Part shown: in pieces, positions 12,011 to 19,427 of the stretch | How the letters are laid out: every line of letters begins with the position of its first letter | Numbering within the stretch: position 1 is the first letter of the stretch | Origin: Clostridia bacterium | Lineage (GTDB): Bacteria > Bacillota > Clostridia > Christensenellales > Aristaeellaceae | DNA: 35,115 nt | NCBI GenBank assembly: GCA_017512805.1 | Contig: JAFWES010000079.1 | Location: 1 to 35,115 of the forward strand | Direction: 5' to 3' | Position numbers and translations under genes: made by a program | The notes under the pieces: generated by a model | Seen by the model: only the letters and a program-made list of their open reading frames with translations | What the model was told of the DNA's origin: nothing | Database searches by the model: none

Positions 12011-13495
12011 TTAGTCCGTGGTGTCCATATGCCCGTCCCGGTACATGGAGAAGCGGTCCATGGGGTAGTTTTTCAGGTTGTCCAGGATCCGGCGGCCATC
12101 GGCCTTGGCCAGCAGCCCGGTTCTGGCCTGCATGACCAGGTTTTCCGCCTGGTGCCTGGAGGGGCCGCCGATACATCCGCCGGGGCACATCATGCCCTCC
12201 ACAAAGTCCGCGTCCAGCCTGCCGGCTTTCAGCAGCTGCAGGGCCTTTTTGCATTCCGCGCCGCCGGCACAGGTCTGCAGCTTGATCTCGGACACGTCCT
12301 CGCCCATCTCCTGCATCACTTCCAGCACCGCCGCGGCCACGCCGCCGGACCCGGCAAAGCGCTTTCCGAAGAGGGAGGCCTCCTGATAATCCTCTTCCAC
12401 CGGCTCCACCGCGATGCCCCGGGAATCCAGCATGGCCACGATTTCACCGTAGGTCAGCGCGTAGTCCGGCCGATCGGCGATAAACTCATTGAGCGTTTCG
12501 CCTTTCTTGGCGATGCAGGGCCCGATAAAAACGGTGACACAGTCCGGATCGAGGGCCTTCAGGTACCGGGAGACCGCGACCATGGGGGAGACGGTATCCG
12601 ATTTGCAGGTATCGTACAGCGTGGGGAAATGATGCCGGATCATGGAAATGAAAGCCGGGCAGCAGGAGGTCGTCATCTTGCGGCCTTCCTTCCGGGCCTC
12701 GATCCATTCCTTCGCTTCGGAGGCGGCGGTCATATCGCCGCCCAGGCCGACCTCCACCATATCGGCGAAGCCCAGCTTTTTCAGGGCGGCTTTGACGGAC
12801 GCCATCCCCACATCCTTGCCGAACTGGCCCTCGGTCGCGGGGGCGCACATGGCGATCACACGTTTTCCGGCCTTGATGGCCCGGATCACATCCACGGCGA
12901 AGATCTTGGTGCCGATGGCGCCGAAGGGGCAGGCGTGGATGCAGTGCCCGCAGTGGACGCACTTTCCCTCATCGATGATGCAAAGGCCGTATTCATCATA
13001 GGAGATGGCGCCGGCGGGACAGGCCGCCTTGCAGGGGCGCTCCAGATGGAGAATCGCGCCGTAGGGGCAGGCTTTCGCGCACAGGCCGCAGGATTTGCAC
13101 TTGTTGGGATCGATCTTCATGCGGTTTTCCCCGGGGGAAATGGCGCCGAAGCGGCAGGAGTTCAGGCAGGCCTTTCCCAGGCAGAAACGGCAGATATCGG
13201 TGACGGAATAATCCTGAATCGGACAGTCGTCGCAGGCGGCGGGAATGACCGCCACCACGTTCTTCGTCTCCTTATCCACGTCCGGCGCCAGGCCGCAGGC
13301 CAGGCGGATGCGGCCGCGAACGATTTCCCGTTCCTTGTAGACGCAGCAGCGGTATTGGGGCTTGGGGCCGGGGCTGACCCGAATGACGATCTTTTCCTTG
13401 TTGTCCTCCGTCAGCTGATCCTCCCAGGCCAGGCGGCATACATCCCGCAGGATGGCATGCTTCAGTTCCACAATGCTTTTATCGTTCGTGACCAT
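12011..13495 (-). CDS. [FeFe] hydrogenase, group-B-like, with N-terminal ferredoxin domains
   Basis: The protein has 494 residues. The ATG at 13495 follows AAAGGA at a normal distance; the frame extends upstream without a ribosome binding site. Many Cys near residues 90-205 form ferredoxin-like Fe-S sites (CKSCGLCAKACP, CVHCGHCIHACP). The H-cluster motifs are complete: TSCCPAF with Cys278 and Cys279, GPCIAKKGE with Cys327, and EGMMCPGGCIGG with Cys437 and Cys441. The proton-transfer Cys278 is present, so it should be catalytically competent, presumably oxidising ferredoxin to make H2 in the cytoplasm. The length and the GPCIAKK form of the second motif suit the monomeric group B family of clostridia. 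It is transcribed divergently from the gene run at 13813-18431. Confidence 0.9.
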   Translation of the reverse strand: MVTNDKSIVELKHAILRDVCRLAWEDQLTEDNKEKIVIRVSPGPKPQYRCCVYKEREIVRGRIRLACGLAPDVDKETKNVVAVIPAACDDCPIQDYSVTDICRFCLGKACLNSCRFGAISPGENRMKIDPNKCKSCGLCAKACPYGAILHLERPCKAACPAGAISYDEYGLCIIDEGKCVHCGHCIHACPFGAIGTKIFAVDVIRAIKAGKRVIAMCAPATEGQFGKDVGMASVKAALKKLGFADMVEVGLGGDMTAASEAKEWIEARKEGRKMTTSCCPAFISMIRHHFPTLYDTCKSDTVSPMVAVSRYLKALDPDCVTVFIGPCIAKKGETLNEFIADRPDYALTYGEIVAMLDSRGIAVEPVEEDYQEASLFGKRFAGSGGVAAAVLEVMQEMGEDVSEIKLQTCAGGAECKKALQLLKAGRLDADFVEGMMCPGGCIGGPSRHQAENLVMQARTGLLAKADGRRILDNLKNYPMDRFSMYRDGHMDTTD

Positions 13496-13549
13496 AATGC
13501 TGTTTCCTTTCCGTACGCTTGTTTGACGCGGGGATTCCCACTGAGACGG

Positions 13550-13579
13550 ATTATACCATAATCCGCCTGCGGCCCGCAA
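13550..13579 (-). promoter_or_regulatory. Promoter of the [FeFe] hydrogenase gene
   Basis: On the minus strand TTGCGG (13579-13574) and a perfect TATAAT (13555-13550) are 18 bases apart. The start would be near 13543, giving a leader of about 48 bases. Confidence 0.65.
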
Positions 13580-13640
13580 CAATCAAAAAGGCGGGCGAAC
13601 CGTCCGACCATGTCGGAAAAACGGGCGCCCGATTCGAAAG

Positions 13641-13669
13641 TTGCGCTTCCCGCCGCAATGTGGTATGAT
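13641..13669 (+). promoter_or_regulatory. Candidate promoter of the dCMP deaminase gene run
   Basis: TTGCGC at 13641-13646 and TATGAT at 13664-13669 are 17 bases apart. The -10 box overlaps the start of the first 25-bp tandem repeat, so a repeat-binding protein would directly affect polymerase access. Confidence 0.5.
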
Positions 13670-13763
13670 ATCCACCGGAATACATAGGTATGATATCCGC
13701 CGGAATACATAGGTGTGATATCCACCGGAATACACAGATGATCCCCACCGGAATACACAGGGA
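13666..13763. repeat. Four tandem 25-bp repeats in the divergent intergenic region
   Basis: Units start at 13666, 13691, 13716 and 13739; the third is 23 bases, the others 25. The core is TGATATCCACCGGAATACAYAGG, with one or two changes per unit. The first unit junction recreates a TATGAT box. The core half-sites TATCC and GAATA form an imperfect palindrome around ACCG, as an operator might. There are no spacers, so this is not CRISPR. Confidence 0.85.
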
Positions 13764-13812
13764 CGAACCGACATGCGGAGGAGCGGCCTCCGACAAAGGG
13801 AGGGCAAAGCCG

Positions 13813-14271
13813 ATGGATAAATGGGACCGGCGGTTCATGAAGATGACCTACACCATCGCGGAATGGAGCAGCTGCTTCCGGAAGGGGCGGAGCATCGGGT
13901 GCGTCATCGTGCGGGACAAGCGGATCATGACCACGGGATACAACGGGGCGCCGGCGGGGATCAGGACCTGCCGGGAAAAGGGAGAATGCCTGCGGGATAA
14001 GCTGGGGATCGCCAGCGGGACCCGGATGGAGACCTGTTACGCGGTGCACGCGGAGCAGAACGCCATCGTGCAGGCCGCGAAGCTGGGGGTGTCCATCGAC
14101 GGGGCGACCCTGTACTGCACCCATCAGCCCTGCAGCATGTGCTGCAAGATGATTATCAACAGCGGGATCCGGCGGGTGGTGTACCGGGAGGGGTATCCCG
14201 ATCCCTTCACGCTGGAGCTCTTTGACGAGGCGGGCGTGGCGCTGGAAAAGTTCGAAGAGGAGCTGGAGTAG
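13813..14271 (+). CDS. dCMP/cytidylate deaminase family protein (ComEB-like)
   Basis: The protein has 152 residues and starts at an ATG 9 bases after AAGGGAGGG. Zinc-site motifs are intact: HAEQNAI (His ligand plus catalytic Glu) and PCSMCC (two Cys ligands). GYNGAPAGIRTC and the conserved length fit deoxycytidylate deaminases, which convert dCMP to dUMP for thymidylate synthesis. In other Bacillota this enzyme is called ComEB, but the ComEA and ComEC competence genes are not nearby. It leads the plus-strand run and lies 37 bases before the next gene, so co-transcription is likely, although its own role is probably housekeeping. Confidence 0.93.
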   Translation: MDKWDRRFMKMTYTIAEWSSCFRKGRSIGCVIVRDKRIMTTGYNGAPAGIRTCREKGECLRDKLGIASGTRMETCYAVHAEQNAIVQAAKLGVSIDGATLYCTHQPCSMCCKMIINSGIRRVVYREGYPDPFTLELFDEAGVALEKFEEELE

Positions 14272-14308
14272 CGCGCCGGGACGGCCCGACGGAAAGGAGA
14301 CGCGACGC

Positions 14309-15082
14309 ATGAAGTATCATATCGACACGATCCCGATCTGGGACGCGGCGAAACTGGACGGGGAATGCCTGATGTGCGCCCTGGAGCGGCGGACGGAGCT
14401 GGGGGAGGCGGAGCGGTATCTGGGGGCTTCGGTGATGGAGCCGGATACGCGGATCCAGGTGAACAAAAGGGGCTTTTGCCGGAAGCATCACGGGATGCTG
14501 TTCGGGATGAGCAACCGACTGGGGCACGCGCTGATGCTGGAAAGCCACATGATCGAGAACCGGGAGCGGCTGGCGAAGAGCTGGCAGGCGCTGGAAAAGG
14601 CCGGGGAGCAGCTGGAGGCGGCCGGCCTGGGAGACAAGCTGAACGGGAAGGTCAAGGGGCTGAAGGACAGCGTGAAGAAGGAAGCCGCCGCCATCAGGGA
14701 GATGGCGGGGACCTGCGTCATGTGCGATACGATTCAGGACAATATGACCCGGTACATGCACACCTTCTTTCACCTGTACAGGAGCGATACGGAGTTCAGG
14801 ACGAAGTTCAGCGCGGGAAAAGGGCTGTGCATCCCCCATACGGGGCAGCTGCTGGAGACGGCGGCGGAGGAGCTGAGCGGAAAGGAGCTGGGGGCTTTCG
14901 TCCGGGCGCTGGCCGCCAGCGAAAAGGAGAATCTGGACCGGATTCAGGAGGATATTTCCTGGTTTATCAAGAAATTTGATTACCGGTACGAGAAGGAAGA
15001 CTGGAAGAACAGCCGGGACGCGGTGGAGCGGACGGTGAACAAGACCAGAGGCTGGTGCGTGGGGAAGGAGCCGAACGAATGA
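14309..15082 (+). CDS. DUF6062-like protein with two Cys/His metal-site units
   Basis: The protein has 257 residues and starts at an ATG 8 bases after GGAAAGGAGA. From memory it fits the clostridial DUF6062 family (start MKYHIDTIPIWDA, then SVMEPDTR). It holds two similar metal-site units: Cys20-x2-Cys23 with Cys57-x2-His60, and Cys136-x2-Cys139 with Cys174-x2-His177. The gap between the pairs is 33 residues in the first unit and 34 in the second, which suggests an internal duplication and zinc knuckles or treble clefs. A helical, charged region lies between the units. No signal peptide or membrane helix is visible. It overlaps the following DRTGG gene by four bases (ATGA), tying it to the putative sensing module. 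Its function is unknown. Confidence 0.75.
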   Translation: MKYHIDTIPIWDAAKLDGECLMCALERRTELGEAERYLGASVMEPDTRIQVNKRGFCRKHHGMLFGMSNRLGHALMLESHMIENRERLAKSWQALEKAGEQLEAAGLGDKLNGKVKGLKDSVKKEAAAIREMAGTCVMCDTIQDNMTRYMHTFFHLYRSDTEFRTKFSAGKGLCIPHTGQLLETAAEELSGKELGAFVRALAASEKENLDRIQEDISWFIKKFDYRYEKEDWKNSRDAVERTVNKTRGWCVGKEPNE

Positions 15083-15447
15083 CGATCGGGGATGTCAAGG
15101 AGATTCTGGAAGCCGATGTCCTCCTGGGGGAGGACAGAATGGACGAAGAGGTGGATACGGCCTGCGGGTCGGATCTGATGAGCGACGTACTGGCCTTTGT
15201 GAAGGAAAAGGCCGTGCTGATCACGGGGCTGATCAATCCCCACGTGGTCCGCACCAGCGAGATGCTGGACATCTCCTGCATCGTGTTTTCCCGGGGGAAG
15301 CTGCCGGGTCCCCAGATTCTGGAAGAGGCGGAGGAATGCGGCATGACGGTGCTGGCCACGAACATGACCACCTATACCGCCTGCGGGGAGCTCTATACGC
15401 ACGGGCTGCCGGGGAGCAAACGGCGGGCCGCGCCGGAAGGAGCGTGA
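15079..15447 (+). CDS. DRTGG-domain protein 1
   Basis: The protein has 122 residues; its ATG overlaps the upstream stop in ATGA, with AAGGAG 8 bases before. The sequence begins MTIGDVKEILEADVLLGEDR and contains the alternating hydrophobic strands and the Cys-containing turns (DISCIVFSRGK, EECGMTVLATN) of the DRTGG fold (PF07085), known from the linker region of some phosphotransacetylases and CBS proteins and thought to bind small ligands. It has no catalytic motif. Five bases separate it from the HATPase gene. A second DRTGG gene follows the hydrogenase-like gene, so the module contains a pair. Confidence 0.78.
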   Translation: MTIGDVKEILEADVLLGEDRMDEEVDTACGSDLMSDVLAFVKEKAVLITGLINPHVVRTSEMLDISCIVFSRGKLPGPQILEEAEECGMTVLATNMTTYTACGELYTHGLPGSKRRAAPEGA

Positions 15448-15452
15448 CGGCC

Positions 15453-15887
15453 ATGGCGGTTCTGATGGAAAAGAAATTTCCCGTGGAAGCAGGGGCGTAT
15501 GAGACGGCGGGAGAGGTCAGCACCACCATCAAGCGGACGCTCAAGCAGCTGGGGGTCAGCGCGGAGGTGCTGCGCCACGTCAGCGTCGCCTGCTACGAGG
15601 TGGAGCTGAACCTGGTGATTCATTCCGACGGCGGGGCGCTGACCCTGCAGGTGGAGCCGGACAAGGTGACGCTGATTTCCCAGGACGTGGGGCCGGGGAT
15701 CCCGGATATCGGGAAGGCCATGACGGAGGGGTTCTCCACCGCCAACGAGGAAGCCCGGACGCTGGGATTCGGGGCCGGCATGGGCCTGCCCAACATGAAA
15801 CGGAACGCGACGGAGTTCGATATTCAGAGCGAGGTGGGGGTGGGGACCACCATCACCATGAGCTTCGCCCTGGACATGAAGGGATAA
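15453..15887 (+). CDS. HATPase_c kinase-like protein (anti-sigma factor type)
   Basis: The protein has 144 residues. The ATG at 15453 lies 10 bases after GGAAGGAG; a second ATG at 15465 is possible. It is a stand-alone GHKL ATPase domain: N box CYEVELNLVIHS with the Glu and Asn, G1 box DVGPGIPD, and G2 box GFGAGMGLPNMK. There is no phospho-acceptor His domain or sensor domain. In RsbW and SpoIIAB such domains are Ser kinases acting on a partner protein. Here no sigma factor or STAS partner is adjacent; the neighbours are DRTGG proteins and a hydrogenase-like protein, so it may transmit a hydrogen or redox signal. The partner is not known. Confidence 0.85.
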   Translation: MAVLMEKKFPVEAGAYETAGEVSTTIKRTLKQLGVSAEVLRHVSVACYEVELNLVIHSDGGALTLQVEPDKVTLISQDVGPGIPDIGKAMTEGFSTANEEARTLGFGAGMGLPNMKRNATEFDIQSEVGVGTTITMSFALDMKG

Positions 15888-16010
15888 AGCCTGTTCCGCC
15901 CGGGGCGGCGCGGGGGAGCCTTTTTCCCGGCGAAGGGCGGACGGTTCACCGGCGGAACGGCCGGGCGGCCGGACCGATGCGAACCGGGGTTCACGGAGGA
16001 GGGACGGAAG

Positions 16011-17306
16011 TTGGAAGCGGTAAAGCGGTTTCACTCGGTACGGCTGGAGGCGGATAAATGCCGGGCCTGCACCAACTGCCTGAAGCGTTGTCCCACGGAG
16101 GCCATCCGGGTCCGGGGCGGAAGCGCGCACATCATCGACGAAAGGTGCATCGACTGCGGGGAATGCATCCGCGTCTGCGGATATCACGCCAAGGTGGCGG
16201 TGACGGATCCCCTCAGCGTCATCGAGGGCTGGAAATATAAGATTGCCCTGCCGGCGCCCAGCCTGTACGGGCAGTTCAAGAACCTGAAGAATATCAGCCA
16301 GCTGCTTTCGGCCATAAAGGAGCTGGGATTTGACGAGGTGTTCGAGGTGGCCCGGGGGGCGGACGTGGTGAGCCGGGCCATCCGGGAACGGCTGAAGAAG
16401 CCGGATCTGCCCCGGCCGGTGATTTCGTCCGCGTGTCCGGCCATCGTGCGGCTGATCCAGGTGCGGTTTCCGGACCTGATCGATCACATCGTGGACATCC
16501 GCCAGCCCATGGAGGTGGCGGCGATGATCGCCCGGCGGGAGTTCGCCCGGAAGCATCAGGTGCCGGAGGAGGAGATCGGGTGCTTTTTCCTGACGCCCTG
16601 CCCGGCGAAGGTGACGGCGATTCATCATCCCATCGGGCATGAGAAGAGCGCGGTGAACGGGGCCATCAGCGTGATGGAGATCTACGGCCCCCTCAGCGCC
16701 CTGCTGCGCAAGGCGCCGACGGATGAGGCGCTGCAGGAATCGTCGGACTTCGGGGTCGGATGGGCCCGCAGCGGCGGGGAATGCGACGCGGTCTGCCCCA
16801 CGGAAAGCATGGCGGTGGACGGGATTTCCAACTGCATCAAGGTGCTGGAGGAGATTGAGGACAACCGGCTGAACGGGCTGGAGTTTTTCGAGGGGGCGGC
16901 GTGCCTGGGCGGATGCGTGGGAGGGCCGCTGAACTTCGAGAACACCTATGTGGCCCGGAACTGGATCCGCAGGCTGGTGGACATCCGGGACGCGGATCTG
17001 AACGTGGACAACGGGATGATGACCAAGTATCAGCTGTATGACAGCAAGCGGATTCAGCCCAACTCCGCGCTGAAGCTGGACGACGATCTGCTGGAGGCGC
17101 TGCGGAAGATGGAGCGGATCGAGGAGATCTACCAGTCGCTGCCGGGGTATGACTGCGGGAGCTGCGGAAGCCCGACCTGCAGGACCTTTGCGGAGGACAT
17201 CGTTCAGGGGAATGCCCGGGAGATGGAATGCATTTACCGGATGAAGGATCATCTGAAGATTATGGCCCAGCAGATGGTGGATCTGGCGGAGACGACCCGG
17301 GAATAG
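16011..17306 (+). CDS. Sensory-type [FeFe]-hydrogenase-like protein
   Basis: The protein has 431 residues and a TTG start at 16011 about 8 bases after GGAGGAGGG. Domains in order: two [4Fe-4S] sites (Cys17/20/23/27 and Cys46/49/52/56), an [FeFe]-hydrogenase large-subunit domain, and a C-terminal Fe-S domain with Cys382, 385, 390 and 407 (CX2CX4CX16C, PF04060-like). H-cluster ligands are kept: Cys142, Cys197 (with Lys200), Cys298 and Cys302. The first motif reads SSACPAI instead of TSCCPxW: Ala141 replaces the proton-relay Cys. The Met before Cys197 is Thr and the third motif is GAACLGGC. These changes are those reported for sensory HydS-like proteins, so slow catalysis and H2 or redox sensing are likely. 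A PAS domain, common in group C sensors, is absent. Confidence 0.87.
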   Translation: MEAVKRFHSVRLEADKCRACTNCLKRCPTEAIRVRGGSAHIIDERCIDCGECIRVCGYHAKVAVTDPLSVIEGWKYKIALPAPSLYGQFKNLKNISQLLSAIKELGFDEVFEVARGADVVSRAIRERLKKPDLPRPVISSACPAIVRLIQVRFPDLIDHIVDIRQPMEVAAMIARREFARKHQVPEEEIGCFFLTPCPAKVTAIHHPIGHEKSAVNGAISVMEIYGPLSALLRKAPTDEALQESSDFGVGWARSGGECDAVCPTESMAVDGISNCIKVLEEIEDNRLNGLEFFEGAACLGGCVGGPLNFENTYVARNWIRRLVDIRDADLNVDNGMMTKYQLYDSKRIQPNSALKLDDDLLEALRKMERIEEIYQSLPGYDCGSCGSPTCRTFAEDIVQGNAREMECIYRMKDHLKIMAQQMVDLAETTRE

Positions 17307-17383
17307 GGTTCGGCGGCGCGGCCGCTCGAACCGACACGCGCGGGAGACCGGCGGGAGAAGGAACGGAAGGAGTACAGGGAACC

Positions 17384-17737
17384 ATGACGATAAAAGAACT
17401 GATCGAACTGACGGGGGCAAAGAACATGACGCCGGAGGCTAGCCGGGACACGGAGGTGACCTGCGGGTATACCTGCGACCTGCTGAGCTGGGTGATGGCC
17501 CACGGGAGGGCCGGGATGGCCTGGATTACGGTGCAGACCCACATGAACGTGATCGCCGTGGCCAGCCTGATGGAGATGGCGGCGGTGATCGTGCCGGAAG
17601 GGATCGAGATGGAAGGCCCCACGCTGGAAAAGGCCCGGGAGGAAGGGATCTGCGTGCTGCAGAGCGAAAAAACCGCCTTCGAGCTTTGCGCGCTGATGGC
17701 GCAGGCGGGGCTGAAGGGGACGCCCCGGGAGGAATAA
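17384..17737 (+). CDS. DRTGG-domain protein 2
   Basis: The protein has 117 residues and starts at an ATG 11 bases after AAGGAG. It begins MTIKELIELTGAKNMTPE and contains a Cys-rich strand (VTCGYTCDLLSWVMAHG) and the WITVQTHMNVIAVASL segment typical of the DRTGG/HPr-kinase N-terminal-like proteins next to hydrogenase genes in clostridia. It is short, soluble and lacks a P-loop. The PHP gene starts 4 bases after its stop, so the two are co-translated. It probably binds a small ligand or a partner protein; its role is inferred only from context. Confidence 0.78.
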   Translation: MTIKELIELTGAKNMTPEASRDTEVTCGYTCDLLSWVMAHGRAGMAWITVQTHMNVIAVASLMEMAAVIVPEGIEMEGPTLEKAREEGICVLQSEKTAFELCALMAQAGLKGTPREE

Positions 17738-17741
17738 AGGG

Positions 17742-18431
17742 ATGCTGGTGGATCTGCACATGCACAGCTGCCTGTCCCCCTGCGCGGATGACGACATGAC
17801 GCCGGCGAATATCTGCGGCATGGCGCACATCAAGGGGCTGGAGGCCATCGCGGTCACGGATCACAACTCGGCGCGGAATCTGCCCTATGTGAAGGAAGCG
17901 GCGGATTATTACGGGCTGATCCTGCTGCCGGGAATGGAGATTACCACCAGGGAAGAAGTACACCTGCTGGGGTATTTCAGGGATGTGGAGACGGCGGTGG
18001 AGGTCGGGGAGTTTTTTTCCGGCCACCTGCCGCCCATGAAAAACAGACCGGATTATTTCGGAAACCAGCTGGTCATGAATACGGACGATGAAGTGCTGGA
18101 TGTCGAGGAAAGGCTGCTGATGGGCGCGACGGATCTGAGCCTGCAGGAGTGCGTGAAGATCATCCGGGATCACGGAGGAGCCGCCGTGCCGGCGCACATC
18201 AACCGGGGACACGGGCTGCTGGTCACGCTGGGCCTGTTTCCGGAGGATGTGGAGTTCCCGGTGGTGGAGGTGCGGCCGGAGCTGCCGGTGAACGAGAAGC
18301 TGATTACGGGGAAGCGGCGGCTCTGGTCGTCGGACGCCCACCGGCTGGGGGATATCCTGGAAGCGGTCAGCGATCTGCCGGTGGATCGGTTTTCCCTGGG
18401 CGGGCTGTTTGACGCGGTCAGCGGCCGATGA
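17742..18431 (+). CDS. PHP-domain metal-dependent phosphoesterase
   Basis: The protein has 229 residues. PHP motifs appear in order: DLHMHS at the N-terminus (HxH metal ligands), TDHN, GMEIT (Glu ligand), EVHLLGYF, PAHINR and SDAH near the C-terminus. This is the TrpH/YciV-like fold that hydrolyses phosphate esters of nucleotides or phosphohistidine in three-metal sites. It lies 4 bases after the DRTGG-2 gene and ends the module. In context it could hydrolyse a phosphorylated signal made under control of the HATPase protein, but this is inference; nucleotide turnover is an equal alternative. Confidence 0.9.
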   Translation: MLVDLHMHSCLSPCADDDMTPANICGMAHIKGLEAIAVTDHNSARNLPYVKEAADYYGLILLPGMEITTREEVHLLGYFRDVETAVEVGEFFSGHLPPMKNRPDYFGNQLVMNTDDEVLDVEERLLMGATDLSLQECVKIIRDHGGAAVPAHINRGHGLLVTLGLFPEDVEFPVVEVRPELPVNEKLITGKRRLWSSDAHRLGDILEAVSDLPVDRFSLGGLFDAVSGR

Positions 18432-18481
18432 AGAGGCCGCGGGCGATGCGGGCGGGACGTTCGCCGCGGGGCGGAAGGAAA

Positions 18482-18503
18482 CCCGGGGGAAAAAATCCCC
18501 GGG
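18482..18503. other. Hairpin between the PHP gene and yicC
   Basis: CCCGGGG and CCCCGGG pair around an A-rich loop in the 123-base gap. No T-run follows, so termination efficiency is doubtful, and readthrough into the yicC operon is possible. Confidence 0.4.
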
Positions 18504-18554
18504 AGCGAGGCGGAAAAGGATCCGCAATGAATCCGCAAAGGAGTTGAAGGAATT

Positions 18555-19427
18555 TTGCAGAGCATGACGGGGGTGGGCGCGGGAAAGGCGGCCGGAGACG
18601 GATGGGAAGTGACGGCGGAGCTGAAGACCGTGAACCATCGGTTTCTGGATGTGAACCTGCGGCTGCCCCGGAATCTGGCTTTTCTGGAGCCGGTGGCCCG
18701 GGAAAGGATTTCGGCAGGAATCACCCGGGGCCATGTCGAAGTGTATCTGAACGTGATGAGCACCGCCGGCGGCAGCCGGGAGGTGGTGACCGATCCGGGC
18801 CTGGCGGCGGCGTACGCGAAGGCGGCGGAGGAGATCGGGGCGGCGGCCGGGATCCGGGAACGGCTGGGCATCGGCCAGCTGATGGCCCTGGAGGGGGTCG
18901 TGACCCTGACGGAGCGGGAAATGGACCAGGAAACAGTGGCGGCCCTTTGCGGGGAAGCGCTGTCGGAGGCCCTCGAACAGGTGAAGCGGACCCGGGCCCG
19001 GGAAGGGGCGCATCTGAAGGAGGACCTGAAGCTCCATCTGGACCGGGCCGCGGCGCTGAGGGAACAGATTCTGGCCCGGGCCCCGGAGGTGGTCACGGAT
19101 TACCGGAGCCGCCTGGAGAGCCGCCTGGCCCAGCTGGGCGCGGGGGGCGTGGATCCCCAGCGGCTGGCGCAGGAGGTGGCCCTGATGGCGGATCGGTGCG
19201 CCATTGACGAGGAGCTGGCCAGGCTGGACAGCCACATCCGCCAGATGAACCGGTATCTGGAGGCGGAAGGGCCGGAGGGGAAAAAGATGGACTTTCTGAT
19301 TCAGGAGATGAACCGGGAGGCCAATACCATCGGGTCCAAGGCTTCGGACGCGGCCATCGCCCAGGCGGTGGTGGATCTGAAGAGCGAAATCGAGAAGATG
19401 CGGGAGCAGATTCAGAACGTGGAGTAG
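18555..19427 (+). CDS. yicC: YicC-family endoribonuclease
   Basis: The protein has 290 residues. The TTG at 18555 is chosen because it gives the family start MQSMTG; AAAGGAG lies 11 bases upstream, and an ATG three codons later is the alternative. The N-terminal YicC_N domain carries TVNHRFLDVNLRLPRN and the C-terminal DUF1732 domain carries KKMDFLIQEMNREANTIGSK and ends with KSEIEKMREQIQNVE. The family was recently assigned as an RNase acting on small RNAs and mRNA. The order yicC-remA-gmk-rpoZ-coaBC is the conserved Bacillota arrangement and supports the call. Confidence 0.95.
   Translation: MQSMTGVGAGKAAGDGWEVTAELKTVNHRFLDVNLRLPRNLAFLEPVARERISAGITRGHVEVYLNVMSTAGGSREVVTDPGLAAAYAKAAEEIGAAAGIRERLGIGQLMALEGVVTLTEREMDQETVAALCGEALSEALEQVKRTRAREGAHLKEDLKLHLDRAAALREQILARAPEVVTDYRSRLESRLAQLGAGGVDPQRLAQEVALMADRCAIDEELARLDSHIRQMNRYLEAEGPEGKKMDFLIQEMNREANTIGSKASDAAIAQAVVDLKSEIEKMREQIQNVE

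Follow-up and report, generated by a model that had tools for sequence, protein, structure and literature searches.

Several putative sensory [FeFe]-hydrogenases have been described in the literature. Group C (M2f) HydS/HfsB proteins, namely TmHydS, T. saccharolyticum HfsB and R. albus HydS, are proposed H2 sensors encoded near kinase and phosphatase genes, and deletion of hfsB raises ethanol yield (PMC10055695, PMC5707799, PMC11837493). In a 2012 survey, M2e hydrogenases were classed as sensory because their genes lie close to those of bifurcating hydrogenases and protein kinases (PMC3561251); the available part of that survey names neither DRTGG or PHP partners nor unlinked cassettes. The closest described protein is TamHydS from Thermoanaerobacter mathranii. 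Its locus has a GHKL ATPase and an AraC-type regulator upstream of HydABC (PMC8163306). The C-terminal cluster of TamHydS is not reduced by H2, and identification of its partner was named as further work (PMC13104023). We analyzed a 35,115-nucleotide stretch of DNA from a Clostridia bacterium (hereafter, the window). It corresponds to contig C38 of a genome assembled in 93 contigs (3.07 Mb, 87.8% complete). It encodes a HydS-like protein surrounded by genes for a GHKL ATPase (HATPase), two DRTGG proteins and a PHP phosphoesterase. On balance, we favor the view that these five genes are a regulatory cassette which accompanies HydABC, was separated from it in the clade of the window, and would still work in trans.

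The HydS-like protein and its cassette

Group D (M2e) proteins are marked by replacement of C299, a Ser or Thr at the position of M353, a C-terminal FeS motif and lack of PAS (PMC8163306). In the window protein, Ala141 stands at the position of CpI C299, the proton-transfer Cys, and Thr195 at the position of M353. Ala141, the H-cluster cysteines C142, C197, C298 and C302, and the C-terminal CX2CX4CX16C motif (C382, C385, C390, C407) are invariant in 13 aligned relatives. Unlike group C (M2f) sensors, which carry a PAS domain after the C-terminal FeS domain, the protein matches no PAS family in Pfam (E<=0.1) and ends 22 residues past its FeS domain match. The alternative proton path of TamHydS, S249, E252, D265 and E289 (PMC13104023), corresponds to S254, E257, D270 and E294 of the window protein; the three acidic residues are invariant in the 13 rows and S254 varies. 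In a quickly built tree without bootstrap, a branch with SH-aLRT 99 separates the 97 HydS rows, including that of the window, from the group B enzyme and four HydA rows. The window protein is therefore assigned as a putative sensory group D (M2e) [FeFe]-hydrogenase of the TamHydS type, in agreement with an earlier sequence-only reading that placed a sensory-type hydrogenase-like protein in the middle of the locus.

The window protein shares with TamHydS its domain plan and H-cluster ligands, the substitution by Ala, a hydroxyl residue in place of M353, the FeS motif at the C-terminus and the absence of PAS, and both are flanked by a GHKL ATPase (PMC8163306, PMC13104023, PMC11803613). The comparison was made through published residues and a T. 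wiegelii relative (L108) rather than through the TamHydS sequence; in this relative, 13 of 13 checked TamHydS residues have identical numbers. The T. wiegelii copy is about 54% identical to the window HydS and belongs to a complete five-gene cassette followed by HydABC. Unlike at the TamHydS locus, the cassette of the window is apart from HydABC; a position upstream of HydABC, frequent in group D but not defining, is lacking here, as HydABC is on another contig.

Six genes occupy this part of the + strand (Table 1), one fewer than the sequence-only reading had counted. The coordinates confirm the spacings it reported: DRTGG1 starts 4 bases inside the end of DUF6062, HATPase follows DRTGG1 after 5 bases, and PHP follows DRTGG2 after 4. 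The HydS-like gene has a TTG start 123 bases after HATPase and is 77 bases from DRTGG2. Pfam at cut-off supports five of the six gene names, the exception being DRTGG2.

Table 1. Features of the window around the cassette (14309-18431, six genes), with supporting matches
Feature	Position	Strand	Support
Group B monomeric [FeFe]-hydrogenase	12011-13582	-	TIGR04105 556 bits, cut-off 450
dCMP-deaminase-like, flanking gene	13813-14271	+	
DUF6062 protein	14309-15082	+	PF19538 285 bits, cut-off 27
DRTGG1 protein, cassette core	15079-15447	+	PF07085 36.2 bits, cut-off 25.2
SpoIIAB/RsbW-like GHKL ATPase (HATPase), cassette core	15453-15887	+	HATPase_c 37.7 bits, cut-off 26.4
HydS-like, group D (M2e) putative sensory [FeFe]-hydrogenase	16011-17306	+	Fe_hyd_lg_C 114.4 bits, cut-off 22.1
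HydS-like C-terminal FeS domain	within 16011-17306	+	PF04060 48.3 bits, cut-off 23
DRTGG2, divergent DRTGG paralogue, cassette core	17384-17737	+	15.7 bits, below Pfam cut-off
PHP metal-dependent phosphoesterase, cassette core	17742-18431	+	PF02811 29.3 bits, cut-off 26.4
Synteny breakpoint	18432-18554	.	left and right blocks compared with complete sister genome G023
yicC, flanking gene	18555-19427	+	

The neighborhood of HydS was compared in the best 80 of 588 candidate loci from named genomes, with partner and linkage counts restricted to loci with contig room (71, 64 or 49 of the 80). Most loci are from draft metagenome-assembled genomes, contig ends were treated by room thresholds only, some species occur twice, as a genome of the class sample and as a named locus (e.g., L063/L075, L045/L110), and domain matches below 20 bits were excluded from the locus listings. 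DRTGG1 was present in 69/71 loci, HATPase in 71/71, DRTGG2 in 59/64 and PHP in 58/64. Order and strand were constant (DRTGG1-HATPase-HydS-DRTGG2-PHP) in all 68 named loci holding all five genes, and in all 34 such loci of a second set drawn from the class sample. The clustering is far beyond chance, and the five genes form a rigid cassette in Clostridia. Thus, the conserved module proposed from the sequence, with a sensory-type hydrogenase, a SpoIIAB-like GHKL protein, two DRTGG proteins and PHP, recurs in relatives, and the random neighborhoods that would have spoken against it were not seen. In L036, L038 and L134 the cassette lies between HydC and HATP2 (a second GHKL gene of the HydABC operon), and in L037 HydC is upstream and the contig then ends; this indicates that the five genes move as a block.

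When the open reading frames of 87 loci were clustered, HydC, HATP2, TrxD and HydB were each represented in 45-47 loci. DUF6062 was seen in 13, and dCMP deaminase and an ABC-transporter-like family in 11 each; the remaining families occurred in six or fewer, among them a sensor-kinase-like and a response-regulator-like family in five loci each. At L114 (9526-13000) and L132 (9574-11257), HATPase and HydS stand with no DRTGG or PHP gene, and a second hydrogenase-like frame lies directly downstream at L114.

The conserved cassette names four candidate partners of group D HydS. The association of HydS, kinase and HydABC is already published; for the DRTGG and PHP partners and for the recurrent uncoupling we found no account in the available parts of the open-licence literature, although one may be printed elsewhere. 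Of 291 genomes sampled from the class, 143 have HydS, and several named loci derive from rumen samples according to their record titles. Therefore, what the cassette does would bear on the response of fermenters to H2.

Separation from HydABC

HydABC genes lie within 10 kb of the cassette in 28 of the 49 named loci having at least 7 kb downstream. In the linked arrangement, the cassette is followed by HydC-GHKL(HATP2)-2Fe2S(TrxD)-HydB-HydA. A phmmer search of the window with the genome's own copies of HydC, HydB and HydA gave no match to any of them; the HydABC of the source genome is on contig C41. Besides HydS, this genome has two [FeFe]-hydrogenases, a group A HydA on C41 and a group B monomeric enzyme in the window. 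The sequence-only reading had described a distinct module without HydABC. This is true of the window itself but not of the genome, and the module as such is a frequent companion of HydABC that was separated from it in the clade of the window.

The position of the break could be located by comparison with relatives. Among sister loci (HydS identity about 77-80%), 17 of 18 have dCMP deaminase-DUF6062-cassette-HydC-HATP2-TrxD-HydB in order; 15 of those 17 also have HydA and the other two contigs stop in HydB. Sister locus L063 has no HydC across 7.4 kb after PHP. In closer relatives (L048-L054), yicC-gmk follows the cassette in 7/7, as it does in the window. HydB was found in seven of the eight genomes of the window clade, always on a contig other than that of the cassette; it was missing in G014 (77% complete), and G032 had only a fragment. 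In the complete genome G023, the synteny switches right after PHP: the part of the window left of the breakpoint corresponds to the HydABC-linked cassette region, and the yicC-gmk block to the right is found about 475 kb away. Because several more distant relatives carry the cassette linked to HydABC, the separation is most simply regarded as derived.

The linkage has been lost repeatedly. Parsimony on the HydS tree needs 14 changes of the unlinked label, and at least seven when only well-supported branches are counted; the tree and the co-occurrence counts include related genomes and drafts. All 21 unlinked genomes of the named set hold some other [FeFe]-hydrogenase, and 18 have HydB at 1e-100, which is missing in G359, G368 and G369. 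Two of the 21 unlinked loci (L085, L091) retain HATP2 beside PHP. Over the class, HydB was found in 230 of 291 genomes, in 138/143 with HydS and 92/148 without (odds ratio 16.8; cut-offs 1e-90 for HydS and 1e-200 for HydB, whose matches may include related NADH-binding subunits). The p value of this test overstates independence because the genomes are related.

The cassette genes are maintained under purifying selection without linkage, as judged from the ratio of nonsynonymous to synonymous substitution rates (dN/dS). Median values in the separated clade were 0.116 for DUF6062, 0.093 for DRTGG1, 0.053 for HATPase, 0.058 for HydS, 0.105 for DRTGG2 and 0.072 for PHP; the flanking yicC and gmk had 0.217 and 0.096. 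In the linked clade the cassette values, in the same order, were 0.154, 0.065, 0.034, 0.077, 0.107 and 0.089. HydA and HydB are not among the separated-clade rows, nor yicC and gmk among the linked-clade rows. Since the cassette and HydABC both look intact though apart, the cassette probably works at a distance from HydABC, and clades in which the two are unlinked are natural cases of action in trans.

Codon usage is less biased in the cassette than in HydABC. In 15 linked loci, AGG, AGA and CGG made up 0.67-0.96 of Arg codons in cassette genes and HATP2, and 0.26-0.34 in HydA, HydB, HydC and TrxD. In the window genome (HydS 27/33, HydA 15/27, HydB 18/29, group B enzyme 16/31, HydC 2/5, TrxD 4/6), the contrast has the same direction but is weaker, with TrxD as an exception. 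The codon usage of HATP2, which lies inside HydABC (L034 5037-5588 and linked loci), follows that of the cassette and not that of HydA and HydB; HATP2 may therefore belong functionally to the regulator.

Partner proteins and proposed mechanism

The GHKL protein of the cassette aligns with SpoIIAB chains over the ATP site (E 2.5e-5), including the N-box Glu and Asn; these two residues, DxGxG and the G-box show 90% or higher conservation across 115 sequences. SpoIIAB and RsbW are partner-switching kinases that work with a STAS antagonist, a PP2C phosphatase and a sigma-factor target. The cassette resembles these systems in its GHKL protein but differs from them in having no STAS antagonist, PP2C/SpoIIE phosphatase or sigma factor, in whose place DRTGG and PHP genes are found. 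The source genome has two STAS and four SpoIIE matches, all on contigs other than that of the window. For DRTGG1, the only solved chain matched was 2ioj (E 3e-4). A DRTGG2 seed matches the DRTGG1 frames of relatives, down to about 1e-12, and DRTGG2 is thus a divergent paralogue of DRTGG1. Ser35 and Thr49 are kept at 90% or more in both proteins and might serve as acceptor sites. In Tepidanaerobacter (one of 80 named loci), DRTGG1 and HATPase are naturally fused, which hints that the two act together. A structure model of this fusion was not used (pTM 0.55, poor N-terminal domain, DRTGG rows badly aligned at 19-28% identity). In PHP, H4, H6, D38, H39, E64, H72, H150, D196 and H198 show 90% or higher conservation across 105 sequences (numbering follows the aligned domain, whose first residue is Val3 in the window protein), and we take them to be metal ligands. 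Position 12, near the third-His site of other PHP proteins, holds a Cys that is conserved to the same degree.

In the mechanism that we propose, the group D hydrogenase-like protein would bind H2 at a slow H-cluster and change its conformation, and this change would modulate the adjacent SpoIIAB-like ATP-binding protein. The partner or phospho-acceptor of the latter would be a DRTGG protein, DRTGG1 first and DRTGG2 possibly second. PHP would hydrolyze a phosphate or nucleotide signal and so reset the system, the output of which may be control of HydABC or linked fermentation genes. We infer H2 as the signal, the kinase activity, the contacts, the direction of signaling and the target. A bolder and doubtful extension is that the cassette is a widespread unrecognized switch, in which an H2-responsive hydrogenase fold acts through a SpoIIAB-like kinase on DRTGG substrates, with reset by PHP and action in trans on HydABC, and in which group D HydS would find its missing partners.

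Several observations weigh against a regulatory cassette acting in trans on HydABC. The failure of H2 to reduce the C-terminal cluster of TamHydS speaks against a simple redox relay, and the fused DRTGG1-HATPase model shows no contact. Some cassettes are incomplete despite room: L114 and L132 have HATPase-HydS only, L077, L080 and L110 lack DRTGG2 and PHP, and L115 lacks PHP. HydS was found in 25 of 36 congeners and undetected in 11, all of which are 54-87% complete. HydABC often occurs without HydS. Among the families present in more than six loci, which were assessed by eye and not in every case by Pfam, none resembles a transcriptional output, and codon usage reflects expression only indirectly.

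Instead of sensing for gene expression, the cassette might be a dedicated assembly, maturation or post-translational activity-control set for HydABC, with the HydS-like protein probing enzyme state or the supply of clusters. The strong co-occurrence with HydB, the second GHKL and thioredoxin-like genes inside the HydABC operon and the lack of an obvious transcriptional output among frequent neighbors are in its favor. We consider it unlikely, since the 92 of 148 HydS-less genomes with HydB indicate that HydABC does not generally need HydS; five HydS genomes also gave no HydB match at 1e-200, although these may be incomplete (80-93% listed). A metabolic operon, in which the HydS-like protein would act as a redox enzyme or slow metabolic hydrogenase and the DRTGG and PHP proteins in nucleotide metabolism, is improbable. 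All four H-cluster cysteines are kept, TamHydS turns over H2 (PMC8163306) and the relatives of PHP are phosphoesterases and exonucleases, but Ala replaces the proton-transfer Cys, codon usage is unlike that of bulk hydrogenases, and a kinase-like ATPase is present in every locus with room.

Two further explanations concern the window genome and its clade. In this genome the cassette might now serve the group B monomeric hydrogenase, which is close by and well above its TIGR04105 cut-off; this is distinctly improbable, as that enzyme is not beside the cassette in L048 and L050-L054, whose contigs extend 1.8-7.6 kb upstream of the deaminase gene (L049 offers no such room). That the genes are decaying remnants, with HydABC attached elsewhere, was a possibility raised with the sequence-only reading. 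HydABC is indeed elsewhere and the linkage is lost, but dN/dS of 0.05-0.12 in the separated clade, kept motifs and open frames make decay scarcely credible.

DUF6062 and neighboring features

The sequence-only reading suggested DUF6062 as an unrecognized member of the module. We rejected it as a general core member: it occurs in 84/143 HydS genomes vs. 69/148 others (odds ratio 1.6, p=0.046), and a hand count of positions among the matches listed places it next to HydS in 12 of the 84 genomes holding both. It is an optional neighbor of doubtful membership. It may have an optional role: five families (f1, f29, f63, f71, f82) show the adjacency, and the orientation differs by clade, being that of the cassette in the genus of the window and opposite in the eight other fetched loci having DUF6062 near HydS. 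The AlphaFold2 model is all-helical (pLDDT 88) with duplicated CxxC/CxxxH sites and has no fold match in the PDB at E<=0.001; no account of DUF6062 was found in open-licence papers. Two genomes of a single genus without a HydS match at 1e-90 have DUF6062 some 2.8-2.9 kb away from HydB (G098:C1 ~2381468, G292:C71 ~26136).

The group B hydrogenase gene is divergent and about 0.7 kb from DUF6062. Between it and the dCMP deaminase gene, at 13662-13759, are four tandem 25-nt repeats of the GGTATGATATCCACCGGAATACATA type; their exact core is in no other genome's fetched locus, and near matches elsewhere in the genome are limited to two isolated ones on C87. Rfam gave no match across 13500-19000, and promoter and terminator scans gave nothing convincing.

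Rex control of the cassette was not adopted. The Rex-like pattern (a consensus with one mismatch allowed) is absent from the window, and shuffles also yield sites. It was found before DRTGG1 in 12/65 loci, without a shuffle control, and before HydC in 13/59 linked loci vs. 27/1180 mononucleotide shuffles. The latter is suggestive of HydABC often having its own promoter, but is not enough to build on. One paper's table lists a T. saccharolyticum PHP-domain gene with a predicted Rex site, which may or may not be the cassette PHP. A Rex-like palindrome lies upstream of HydC on contig C41 of the window genome (L034 4348-4365), and such a site also arose in 25 of 200 shuffled versions of the locus.

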